A stretch of 64,000 nt of DNA from positions 372,001 through 436,000 of the forward strand of contig NZ_GL882544.1 in the NCBI RefSeq assembly GCF_000195595.1. The letters run 5' to 3'. Of this stretch, positions 13,028 through 17,108 are shown piece after piece. Position numbers and translations under genes: made by a program. The notes under the pieces are model-generated. The model was not told the DNA's origin. It saw nothing but the letters and a program-made list of their open reading frames with translations, and ran no database searches. This DNA comes from Actinomyces sp. oral taxon 170 str. F0386. GTDB lineage: Bacteria > Actinomycetota > Actinomycetes > Actinomycetales > Actinomycetaceae. How positions within the stretch are numbered: position 1 is the stretch's first letter; each line of letters begins with the position of its first letter.

Positions 13028-13063
13028 TTGCATCGAAAAATCGGAATATCGTAATATCGATGT
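13028..13063 (+). promoter_or_regulatory. Promoter of the ArsR-like gene, probably leaderless
   Basis: An AT-rich patch in GC-rich surroundings. TTGCAT (13028-13033) is a possible -35; TAATAT (13052-13057) is a good -10 at 18 bp. The first base of the ATG at 13064 is seven bases after the -10, and no Shine-Dalgarno exists. AATATCG is repeated at 13045-13051 and 13053-13059 across the -10, a likely autoregulatory operator. Confidence 0.55.
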
Positions 13064-13609
13064 ATGTACCATAAGACACAGGACCTCGACACCTGGATGT
13101 CGGAGGTCGATCGCCGCCTCTGCGCGCTGGAACAGACCCGCACCTCCAACGAGACCGCCGGATCCGCGATAACGGCACCCGAATCATCTCCACGGACCTT
13201 CTGGGCCCTGGAGGAGCTGCAGCGCCAGCGTCAGACCGAGAAGTCCATCGCCGACGGCGTCGTCATGCTGGTCGGCTCTGTCACTTTGGAGGGCGATGTC
13301 CCGGTGGAGTGGCAGGAGGCGCGCTCCAGCCGTGAGATCCTGGACTCCCCGTGGGAGGAGATCGCGGCATCGCTGGCGGCCCTCGGGCACCCCGTCCGCC
13401 TGCAGATCCTGCAACAGGTCCTCAGCGGCATCGGCACGACGGCCGACATCGCCGAGGCCCTGAGTCTGTCCTCGGCCGGCCAGCTGCACCACCACCTGCG
13501 TCAGCTCGTCTCGGCCGGATGGCTGCGGCACGCCGGCCGCGCGGCTTACGAGGTTCCCGCCTCGCGAATCGTGCCCCTGCTGGTCATCGTCCATGGGAGC
13601 GAGTCATGA
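13064..13609 (+). CDS. ArsR-like winged-helix regulator
   Basis: A 181-aa protein. The first ~100 residues hold a predicted coiled-coil-like helix (LDTWMSEVDRRLCALEQT) and an unassigned segment. The C-terminal ~75 residues are an ArsR-type winged HTH (SLAALGHPVRLQILQQVL, TADIAEALSLSSAGQLHHHLRQL). It lacks the Cys metal sites of metal-sensing ArsR proteins. The stop overlaps the start of the M23 peptidase gene (ATGA), so regulator and peptidase are made together. It probably controls its own two-gene operon through the repeats at its promoter. Ligand unknown. Confidence 0.85.
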   Translation: MYHKTQDLDTWMSEVDRRLCALEQTRTSNETAGSAITAPESSPRTFWALEELQRQRQTEKSIADGVVMLVGSVTLEGDVPVEWQEARSSREILDSPWEEIAASLAALGHPVRLQILQQVLSGIGTTADIAEALSLSSAGQLHHHLRQLVSAGWLRHAGRAAYEVPASRIVPLLVIVHGSES

Positions 13610-14565
13610 GGGCGTTCGTGATCGCTGGTCGCTGGTTCCTGATACTTGCCCTATGCTCCATGATGGCCCTTTTCGCCACAACGCTGGCATCTCTCTGCCT
13701 GCCGGCGCATTCGTTCCTTCGAACTGGCTTAGATATCGAAGCGGCACTCCTCTTCACGGGATTGGCCCTCACAGTCCTGTGCAATCTTCGCATCACCTTC
13801 CTCCATCAGCGCTCGGCCGCCACCGATTCGGGGCGCGAGCACGCGGTTCTCGCCCCGACGACAGGACGGTGGGTCGCCCTCAATTCTCCGGCGAGCAAGG
13901 TACCGAGCCACAACTGGCTCTTGGGACAGGCCTACGCCATCGACCTGGTGGCCGCCCCTTCCAGACAGGAGGTGAGTGAAGGAGCCATCGCCCGGCCAGA
14001 TTTCTTCCGCGGCAGCCCCTTCAAGCCCCCGCGCGCCTACCCGGCGTTCGGAATGCCGGTCCGGGCAATGGTTGACGGCGTCGTGGTCTCGTCTGAGGAC
14101 CGTTACCGAGATCATCGCGCCCGTAGCAGGTGGATCGGCTTCATCTACCTCATGGCGGAGGACGCGATCCGCTCCTTGGGGCCGGTGGGGTGGTTGCTCG
14201 GCAACCATGTGACGATCAGGACCGACAGCGGCATCTATGCCCTCGTCGCCCACCTTCAGCACGGCAGTATCCGGGTCAAGGTCGGTCAGCGGGTCCGCGC
14301 CGGCGAGGTCATCGGCGGGTGCGGCAACTCCGGGAACACCAGCGAGCCGCACGTGCACGCCCAGCTCATGGACCGTGCCGAGCCGCCGATGGCCCTCGGA
14401 CTACCGATCTCCTTCATCGGAGCGCGGGCTGAGTCCGCCGAGGAGTACAGCGAATTCGTTCAGGAGCCTCGAAGCAGCGCCTTCAAACCGCTGAGGGGTG
14501 CCCTCCCCTGCAACGGGGAAGCTCTTGTCACGCCCGCGCAGGACTGCCTTACCTGCAAGGAATAA
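13606..14565 (+). CDS. Membrane-anchored M23 metallopeptidase
   Basis: A 319-aa protein with two N-terminal hydrophobic segments (about residues 7-30 and 43-62) and a LytM/M23 domain from about residue 100. The zinc ligands look intact: His102 and Asp113 (HNWLLGQAYAID), and His251 in EPHVHAQ with His249 as catalytic partner. M23 enzymes usually cut peptidoglycan cross-links or other Gly-rich peptides; the target here is unknown. It is unusual in being translationally coupled to an ArsR-like regulator, which suggests inducible rather than constitutive wall processing. Start chosen by the ATGA overlap. Confidence 0.87.
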   Translation: MRAFVIAGRWFLILALCSMMALFATTLASLCLPAHSFLRTGLDIEAALLFTGLALTVLCNLRITFLHQRSAATDSGREHAVLAPTTGRWVALNSPASKVPSHNWLLGQAYAIDLVAAPSRQEVSEGAIARPDFFRGSPFKPPRAYPAFGMPVRAMVDGVVVSSEDRYRDHRARSRWIGFIYLMAEDAIRSLGPVGWLLGNHVTIRTDSGIYALVAHLQHGSIRVKVGQRVRAGEVIGGCGNSGNTSEPHVHAQLMDRAEPPMALGLPISFIGARAESAEEYSEFVQEPRSSAFKPLRGALPCNGEALVTPAQDCLTCKE

Positions 14566-14770: not shown

Positions 14771-15049
14771 ATGTCCGTCACCCAGATCACCTCCTGCACC
14801 ACCACCTCCTGCGCCTTCAACAACGGGGGCTGCACCGCCTATGCCATCACCGTCGGCGGCGACAACGGCGCTCCGGCCTGTGACACCTTCATCAGCCTCG
14901 ACGCCCGCGGTGGTCTGCCCGTGGCCGAGGGGCACGTGGGCGCCTGCCAGCGCCTCGAGTGCGTCCACAACAAGGACCTCATGTGCACCGCCAACGCGGT
15001 GACCGTCGGCGGCGACACAGCCTCCTGCCAGACCTACGAGGTTCGCTGA
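14771..15049 (+). CDS. Tandem DUF1540 Cys-rich protein
   Basis: A 92-aa cytoplasmic protein made of two DUF1540 repeats. Cys residues are at 9, 14, 21 and 37 in the first and 59, 64, 72 and 86 in the second; both repeats contain the motif A-x-x-VTVGGD or A-x-x-ITVGGD. The four-Cys spacing suggests a small metal-binding (zinc or iron) module. Function is not known for the family. ATG at 14771 follows AAAGGA at good spacing. It is a single-gene unit with its own strong terminator. The frame is open further upstream but without conserved sequence. Confidence 0.9.
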   Translation: MSVTQITSCTTTSCAFNNGGCTAYAITVGGDNGAPACDTFISLDARGGLPVAEGHVGACQRLECVHNKDLMCTANAVTVGGDTASCQTYEVR

Positions 15050-15177: not shown

Positions 15178-16065
15178 TCAGGGATGAGTCAGGCGCTGAG
15201 GGAGGGCCTGGGAGGCGAGCTTTTCCAGCGCGGGCCCGACCTCCGCAGCACTGCCCAGGGCCTGTGGGAAGGAGACCACGAGAGTGGCAACCTCCTCCCC
15301 GGTGATGGACATGAGGGTGACCCCGTAAGAGTCAACGTCGACGCACAGGGTTCTGTCCCACAGCGTAGGGCACACGCCGACGGCGGGGCGGGAGGAACAG
15401 GTCCAGCCGGGCATCTGTCCTTCGCGCACTGCATCGCAGACCGCACGCAGTCCCAGCTGGCCGACCGCGCTGACGGCCTCATGGGCGTCCATGACCTCTT
15501 GGGGGCTCCAGGAGGTTGAGGAGGCCATACCGGCATCGGTAGGGGCGACGTCGAGGATCTCCTCGATGCCATGGCTGGAGACCCCGGAGACGCAGTGGAG
15601 CATGACCCGTTCGCAGGCGATGACGCCCAGACGCCCTCCGGGCCCCGCGGCGATCTCACGTACGCGCTCAAGAGGGTCCTCACCGACGATGGCGCAGTGG
15701 CAGGCAGATGTCCGGGATGAGGCCAGAACGAGCGCCCGGTCCTCACCGTCTACCCACGTCAGACTGCCCAGCAGGTGGGCCGTGGCAGCGGTGATGCGCA
15801 CGCCGGGCTCAGCGGCGTCGAGGGTGACGTCGAGGCGGACGTCGACGGCGACGTCGTCGGGCGCGATGGCCAGCGGGGTACCTTGAGGCGGGCAGGCGGC
15901 CACGAGGATCCGACCATCGGCCCGCATAGCGTGAGCGACGAAGGCGGCGGGCGCGGAGGGGTCGATGCGGTAGGCCGTCACCGCGGCGCTTCCACCGCCG
16001 GCCAGGAGGCGCCTGGCCGTGCGCCGGGCGCGCTGCATGATGTCGGGGACCTGAACGGACGTCAC
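15178..16065 (-). CDS. DUF2470-like protein, probably iron regulated
   Basis: A 295-aa soluble protein. The C-terminal ~100 residues (SPQEVMDAHEAV, VDVDSYGVTLMSITG, LVVSFPQALGSA) resemble the DUF2470 fold found in HugZ-like heme-utilisation proteins; the N-terminal half resembles a split-barrel domain but is weakly conserved. Several His and Cys residues could bind heme, though none can be assigned. A DtxR-type box lies 57-75 bases upstream, so repression by iron is likely. The GTG at 16065 follows AGGAAGG at 9 bases. The assignment is moderate; a profile search would settle it. Confidence 0.65.
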   Translation of the reverse strand: MTSVQVPDIMQRARRTARRLLAGGGSAAVTAYRIDPSAPAAFVAHAMRADGRILVAACPPQGTPLAIAPDDVAVDVRLDVTLDAAEPGVRITAATAHLLGSLTWVDGEDRALVLASSRTSACHCAIVGEDPLERVREIAAGPGGRLGVIACERVMLHCVSGVSSHGIEEILDVAPTDAGMASSTSWSPQEVMDAHEAVSAVGQLGLRAVCDAVREGQMPGWTCSSRPAVGVCPTLWDRTLCVDVDSYGVTLMSITGEEVATLVVSFPQALGSAAEVGPALEKLASQALPQRLTHP

Positions 16066-16837: not shown

Positions 16838-16921
16838 ATCCGCATTGTGCCGCACACGCCGCGGCGAGCAGAGAAACAAAACGGCCCTCGCCTGACGGCA
16901 GGACCTGCTGATGAAGAACTG

Positions 16922-16994
16922 TGGAGCTAGGGGGATTCGAACCCCCGACCTCTTCCATGCCATGGAAGCGCGCTACCAACTGCGCCATAGCCCC
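16922..16994 (-). tRNA. tRNA-Ala (anticodon GGC), copy 1
   Basis: A 73-base cloverleaf on the minus strand. The acceptor stem GGGGCTA/TAGCTCC has one G-U pair, the D stem is GCGC, the anticodon stem CTTCC/GGAAG encloses ATGGCAT with GGC at 34-36, and the T arm is GGGGG TTCGAAT CCCCC. CCA is not encoded. Confidence 0.97.
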
Positions 16995-17035
16995 GACGTG
17001 GGTGCTCCACCCGGAGAAGAATTCCGAGCGGTTCG

Positions 17036-17108
17036 TGGAGCTAGGGGGATTCGAACCCCCGACCTCTTCCATGCCATGGAAGCGCGCTACCAACTGCGCC
17101 ATAGCCCC
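17036..17108 (-). tRNA. tRNA-Ala (anticodon GGC), copy 2
   Basis: Identical over all 73 bases to the copy 41 bases away at 16922-16994, same strand, anticodon GGC. The flanking sequences differ, so only the tRNA unit is duplicated. CCA is not encoded. Confidence 0.97.

Follow-up and report, generated by a model that had tools for sequence, protein, structure and literature searches.

The window analysed here, a 64,000-nucleotide stretch of DNA from Actinomyces sp. oral taxon 170 str. F0386, carries a gene for an ArsR-type regulator that overlaps a gene for a membrane-bound zinc peptidase of the M23/LytM family, and an array of phased octamers, predicted to be the operator, covers the promoter of the regulator. 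Read from its sequence, the pair may form an inducible operon for envelope or peptide stress, transcribed without a leader, in which an autorepressor is produced together with an inward-facing membrane peptidase; we put the chances of this reading at about even. LytM/M23 domains are usually regarded as enzymes that cut the wall from outside the cell. The parts of the unit are ordinary, and what would set it apart is an apparently conserved arrangement of which we found no record in one open-access library, together with a predicted topology contrary to the usual role of the fold. The first-pass annotation had called the pair a self-contained unit, a description sustained by the conservation of both the pair and its operator array across many actinobacteria. 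The features of the unit are as follows.

13028-13033, + strand: putative -35 element, TTGCAT, 18 nt before the -10; the TTG is conserved in relatives
13032-13063, + strand: predicted operator array, octamers ATCGAAAA ATCGGAAT ATCGTAAT ATCGATGT (TRF, CG periodicity)
13052-13057, + strand: putative -10 element, TAATAT; TANNNT is conserved in relatives
13064-13609, + strand: ORF of the ArsR-type winged-helix regulator, 181 aa (Pfam, orthologues, AlphaFold, Foldseek)
13606-13609, + strand: ATGA stop/start overlap of regulator and peptidase, read from the sequence
13606-14565, + strand: ORF of the M23/LytM zinc peptidase, 319 aa (Pfam, conserved position 3' of the regulator, AlphaFold, Foldseek)
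13609-13827, + strand: two-helix hairpin that anchors the peptidase in the membrane (helices at aa 2-31 and 37-74 in the AlphaFold model), N-in/C-in by prediction from flanking charges
13909-13911, + strand: zinc ligand H102, invariant in 39/39 aligned
13942-13944, + strand: zinc ligand D113, invariant in 39/39 aligned
14350-14358, + strand: HxH motif, H249 and H251, invariant in 39/39 aligned

The regulator and the peptidase

The regulator belongs to the ArsR family by its Pfam scores, which exceed the curated cut-offs of both HTH_20 (31.5 bits, cut-off 27, aa 107-152) and the ArsR domain HTH_5 (23.8 bits, cut-off 22, aa 110-152). Its AlphaFold model is fairly confident (pLDDT 88.5) and consists of an N-terminal helix (aa 2-31), a further helix (47-58), a beta-hairpin (66-88), a winged helix at about 97-163 and a C-terminal helix (166-180); when the model was submitted to Foldseek, the best matches were ArsR repressors (E 6e-4), two of them at E 0.001 or better, and only the winged helix was matched. 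The winged helix is common to the window regulator and the ArsR/SmtB repressors, whereas the window protein has about 95 extra N-terminal residues, comprising the helix and the beta-hairpin, and a predicted operator of phased octamers, and it contains no CxC motif. A role as a metal sensor was rejected on account of this missing motif (the single Cys is at aa 20) and of a score of 29.6 bits against the ArsR/SmtB metalloregulator model NF033788, far below the cut-off of 55. Membership of a defence system was also considered and set aside; the peptidase had no PADLOC match at E 0.1, and the match of the regulator to Csa3 (35.4 bits) is confined to the HTH part, aa 86-164.

The peptidase scored 56.4 bits against Peptidase_M23 (PF01551, cut-off 28.7, aa 198-258) and possesses the H...D and HxH ligands, which together place it in the M23 family. 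Ahead of the Pfam-matched part, RDHR and helices form a conserved stretch that spans roughly aa 168-198. The AlphaFold model is again fairly confident (pLDDT 86.4), Foldseek matched it to LytM-domain proteins (64 matches at E 0.001 or better), and among NCBIfam models the closest are for the most part those of peptidoglycan enzymes, each scoring far under its cut-off. To the extent of an alignment of 39 of the 66 paired peptidases, the window's included, from which the short L146, the odd-start L160 and near-duplicates were left out, the two zinc ligands and both histidines of the HxH motif never vary; the earlier claim of intact zinc ligands is borne out, and because of this invariance the peptidase is expected to be catalytically active. 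The domain and its zinc and catalytic residues are common to the window peptidase and the M23/LytM peptidases LytM, lysostaphin, Pgp3 and ShyA; the window-type protein differs from these in the conserved segment ahead of the matched part, and in that its domain is predicted to lie on the cytosolic side.

The ATGA overlap between the two genes, noted in the first pass, is present in the window, but coupling of this kind is not a general trait, as it occurs in 26 of 65 named regulator-M23 pairs (by the start rule of this analysis, among the best 80 of at least 488 loci), and 4 of these 26 are Streptomyces cases in which the likelier start is internal. Judged from these start codons, ATGA coupling is lineage-specific.

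A phased octamer array at the promoter

The tandem AATATCG repeat previously described over the -10 of the regulator was confirmed (copies at 13045-13051 and 13053-13059), and both copies fall inside the larger four-copy octamer array. TRF gave a period-8 array of 3.6 copies at 13032-13060, in which ATCG starts at 13032, 13040, 13048 and 13056; the four CG dinucleotides precede the start codon (ATG, 13064) by 6, 14, 22 and 30 nt. A general repeat search listed no repeat at this place, and the reading rests on TRF together with conservation in relatives. A stock sigma-70 scan likewise returned no site at the window promoter, where TTGCAT matches the consensus at 3/6 positions, the spacer is 18 nt long, and the start codon follows the -10 after 6 nt.

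For the comparison of promoters among relatives, 96 of 119 regulator loci were retained; those removed were nearly identical to another in the 45 bases closest to the start, or had little upstream sequence. Upstream of these 96 starts, CG dinucleotides recurred at a lag of 8 in 211 cases, as against 44.7±6.0 (maximum 62) in 200 dinucleotide shuffles; the counts at lags of 16 and 24 were 129 (36.3±5.1 shuffled) and 71 (27.5±4.9 shuffled), and the other lags from 2 to 23 were about at or under expectation. Arrays scoring 20 bits or more were present in 82/96 promoters; the remaining 14 had none at that score, and some of their starts are perhaps set wrongly. The motif match in the window scored 26.3 bits and lies 2 nt from the start codon, which is the distance seen most often. 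When promoter spacing was computed on the 82 arrays, TTG stood at the -35 position (spacer 16-18) in 59, of which about 1.4 in 96 would be expected by chance, and TANNNT stood at the -10 in 70; the distance from the -10 to the start codon was 6-7 nt in 66 of the 82, from which we infer that the regulator transcript is leaderless.

The commonest form of the array among relatives is ATTACGTA ATTACGTA ATATCGAA. The window octamers are built of ATCG units, unlike this common CGTA form, in an unchanged register. In several lineages the array is a perfect palindrome, so that direct and inverted readings are inseparable there; the window sequence favours the direct-repeat reading.

The exact three-unit array occupies one place in the 3.1-Mb genome of the strain itself (2 overlapping matches; 0 for a reversed-pattern control). 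Among 10 chosen regulator-bearing genomes it was found in 5, each time at the regulator promoter, and was not found in the other 5. In a scan of 199 Streptomyces genomes, again for exact patterns only, 49 contained the array and the reversed-pattern control gave 0 in all 199; 30 loci from the 49 positive genomes were read, and proved to be 27 regulator promoters, one serine hydrolase gene (in genome G805) and 2 other places, perhaps chance matches. A chance repeat was discarded as an explanation in view of the 8-bp CG periodicity in relatives, the single place in the own genome, and the zero control of the Streptomyces scan. A large regulon was rejected too, for the array is nearly single-site wherever its exact form occurs, with the reservation that exact patterns were searched and 5/10 regulator-bearing genomes had no match. 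The position of the array is consistent with autorepression by the regulator and, taken with its near-uniqueness, argues for it; on this evidence the regulator seems to be an autorepressor that has very few targets. Because the operator is compact and nearly unique per genome where the exact form occurs, binding, inducers and targets should be directly testable in Streptomyces.

Distribution of the pair and exchange of the peptidase

A peptidase profile (A2, E 1e-15), which also picks up unpaired soluble relatives, matched in 91/394 genomes of the class and 31/138 genera, and a regulator profile (E 1e-10) matched in 42/394 genomes and 19/138 genera; in a phylum-wide draw the regulator profile, at E 1e-15, matched in 11/396 genomes (own genome included in all three counts). 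Within the genus the pair looks patchy; the regulator was present in 3 of the first 14 loci from relatives, namely the window's own, L002 and L009. In L009 (genome G034) the regulator reads through intact, and the peptidase, at 1471-2223 on the minus strand, stops before the HxH motif, beside inverted-repeat sequence. The own genome also holds a paralogue of the peptidase (G000:C37:49623-50426, L031) that has neither a hydrophobic segment nor a regulator in the adjoining stretch.

A scan of named genomes gave at least 488 stretches encoding a relative of the regulator, of which the best 80 were used. The survey of the pair in other genomes that had been proposed in the first pass gave a positive answer: an M23 gene lay directly downstream of the regulator in 65 of these best 80 of at least 488 loci, with a gap of -4 to 143 nt, a rate biased upward by a query alignment (A3) that was built from M23-paired regulators only, and by the limit to these best loci. 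In 11 of the same 80 loci a serine hydrolase of the beta-lactamase/AmpH type replaced the M23 gene, and 4 (L104, L117, L121 and L152) had neither partner. Over 119 loci, some places being counted twice, the tally was 88 M23, 19 serine hydrolase and 12 other. One place, entered as both L055 and L072, has the gene order reversed and the array before the M23 gene. Regulator and peptidase distances were correlated over 63 pairs (r 0.942, permutation maximum 0.254), a value that still includes shared species history. In the MAG loci L121 and L152, a small two-helix membrane protein follows the regulator and, by eye, resembles the hairpin without the peptidase.

The array accompanies the serine hydrolases at a distance as well as in cis. 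Genome G112 has a second array site before a serine hydrolase about 282 kb from the regulator gene; in G805 the corresponding distance is about 147 kb, and no M23 gene was seen within roughly 1.5 kb beyond the regulator. Both array-linked hydrolases are PF00144 proteins and, judged by eye, carry a Tat-type signal at the N-terminus. PF00144 was found in 4/4 partner hydrolases scanned, two of them cis partners, and the nearest named family of two scanned hydrolases was AmpH, at a score below the cut-off. By the look of their N-termini (Tat-like or an N-terminal anchor, judged by eye), the partner hydrolases are probably secreted. Outside the class, L175 and L177 combine the regulator and an array-like upstream sequence with a serine hydrolase; for the weaker regulator matches L179, L180, L181 and L183, the upstream stretch viewed contained no such array. 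The exchange of the peptidase for an enzyme of the beta-lactamase/AmpH type suggests an envelope-peptide or cell-wall-drug theme rather than metals.

Topology, mechanism and competing explanations

The 66 paired peptidases (65 named plus that of the window) have two hydrophobic segments in 59 cases, one in 4 and three in 3. When the 59 two-helix proteins were examined with our own hydropathy script, the mean K/R count of the two flanks, namely the N-terminus and the stretch following helix 2, was above that of the loop in 59/59; the mean K/R was 2.66 at the N-terminus, 2.95 after helix 2 and 0.46 in the loop, and the mean D/E was 0.41, 2.17 and 0.81 at the same places, so acidic residues are frequent after helix 2 as well (D/E 2.17 vs K/R 2.95). 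Under the positive-inside rule this bias would place both ends of the peptidase in the cytosol, and the M23 domain of the paired peptidases is therefore predicted to face the cytosol; in the window protein itself the bias is marginal (K/R 1 at the N-terminus, 1 in the loop and 2 after helix 2). Of 35 unpaired relatives listed, 33 were distinct, and 29/33 had no strongly hydrophobic segment before the M23 domain, at a hydropathy cut of 1.6 chosen here; such a segment is present in L014, L037, L046 and L048, with L035 and L008 as borderline cases. Among the paired proteins of the same list, 8/8 had one.

We propose that the regulator, acting as a repressor, would occupy the array from the -35 to the -10 and block RNA polymerase, and that an envelope or peptide-antibiotic signal would relieve repression, so that repressor and peptidase rise together. 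The two-helix hairpin would hold the peptidase on the inner face of the membrane and leave its active domain exposed to the cytosol. The substrate cleaved there would be a peptide, and the candidates are a toxic or signalling peptide that has entered the cell, a precursor of peptidoglycan on the inner side of the membrane, whose trimming is a further possibility, and the repressor. The peptidase may also act on the repressor while anchored in the membrane, in the manner of SdpI towards SdpR. In other lineages the regulator and array stand ahead of a serine hydrolase, which points to the same envelope-peptide theme. The secreted-looking alternative partners count against this proposal, as they fit an extracytoplasmic theme better; so do the marginal charge bias of the window peptidase and the acidic residues after helix 2, the four unpaired homologues with hydrophobic segments, the 14/96 promoters that had no array of 20 bits and the 5/10 genomes that had no exact match, the ATCG units of the window, and the regulators that have neither partner next to them.

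An extracytoplasmic theme would also suit the wall-remodelling role that the first-pass annotation had suggested beside signal cleavage; here the repressor would govern an M23 endopeptidase that is anchored in the membrane and works on peptidoglycan on the outer side. M23 enzymes are described as peptidoglycan hydrolases in a portion of PMC9662197, the nearest, far sub-threshold NCBIfam models of the peptidase are mostly peptidoglycan enzymes, its catalytic residues are intact, and the partner that replaces it is a PF00144 hydrolase, secreted by eye and closest to AmpH among named models. Doubt is cast on such remodelling by the cytosolic side predicted for the M23 domain from the charges of 59/59 two-helix anchors (the window's being marginal) and by the 29/33 distinct unpaired relatives in which nothing strongly hydrophobic precedes the domain, and we consider it rather unlikely. 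A plain ArsR repressor, responsive to a metabolite or metal and situated beside an unrelated housekeeping peptidase, would account for the ArsR-type HTH above the Pfam cut-off; the missing CxC motif, the lone Cys and the low metalloregulator score speak against it, as do the conserved pairing and operator array, which argue against a chance neighbourhood, and this explanation appears very improbable indeed.

The BlaI/BlaR1 system consists of the BlaI repressor, an M56 protease and an extracellular penicillin-binding sensor. If the window pair were a switch of that kind, the inward-facing zinc peptidase would cut the repressor upon a signal at the hairpin, and the beta-lactamase-type hydrolase would be an alternative output. 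The parts list fits, with a winged-helix repressor, a zinc protease predicted to face the cytosol from the membrane, and a gene of the beta-lactamase family that the same array precedes, either in cis or in trans, and the two MAG loci that by eye keep a two-helix protein alone beside the regulator could be read in the same way. However, the peptidase is M23 and not M56, the inter-helix loop is short and bears no penicillin-sensing domain, BlaI, M56 and the penicillin-binding sensor are all absent from the Pfam matches of the pair, and the serine-hydrolase loci (19/119) have no adjacent M23 gene; we regard this version as distinctly improbable.

By analogy, BlaI/BlaR1 is one logical precedent and SdpRI is the nearest. 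SdpR is also an ArsR-type protein. In Bacillus subtilis, as passages of PMC1626106 relate, the membrane immunity protein SdpI sequesters the co-encoded autorepressor SdpR, and the window pair is parallel in logic, with a putative autorepressor encoded beside a membrane protein. It differs from SdpR/SdpI in that the regulator scored 19.7 bits against the SdpR family (NF033789, cut-off 100), the membrane partner is a two-helix M23 peptidase and not SdpI, and the predicted operator is an octamer array. A regulator named SdpR occurs in a Nocardia gene cluster in an excerpt of PMC12185567; in an excerpt of PMC12823222, an M23 peptidase lies in a genomic island and ArsR is mentioned in the reference list only. 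One open-access library, judged from its listings, yielded no paper on the regulator-M23 pair or its operator, the serine-hydrolase pair by itself being outside the aim of that search. With the SdpR and BlaI/BlaR1 comparisons negative and no named system found in that library, the earlier statement that the pairing is not a standard named system stands.

Returning to the inducible operon proposed above, a more specific form of it, unlikely as a whole, is a new membrane-to-DNA switch in which an octamer-array autorepressor is controlled by a co-translated, inward-facing M23 protein in an M56-like role; the switch would protect the cell from a peptide that acts on the envelope or from a compound resembling a beta-lactam, and the secreted AmpH/beta-lactamase-type hydrolase would be an interchangeable output. 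If an M23 family does work on the cytosolic face under its own repressor, with a hydrolase swap, it would either constitute a new circuit for sensing of, and immunity to, antibiotics or peptides, or show the fold put to a new use.

Beyond the pair, the window contains a 295-aa ORF on the minus strand (15178-16065) with no Pfam match at E 0.001 and two tandem tRNA-Ala (GGC) genes, also on the minus strand (16921-16994 and 17035-17108), both of which are overlapped by repeated ORF stretches listed near 16921-17108. A small Cys-rich DUF1540 protein (PF07561, 33.7 bits) is encoded at 14771-15049, on the same strand as the pair and 205 bp downstream of it.
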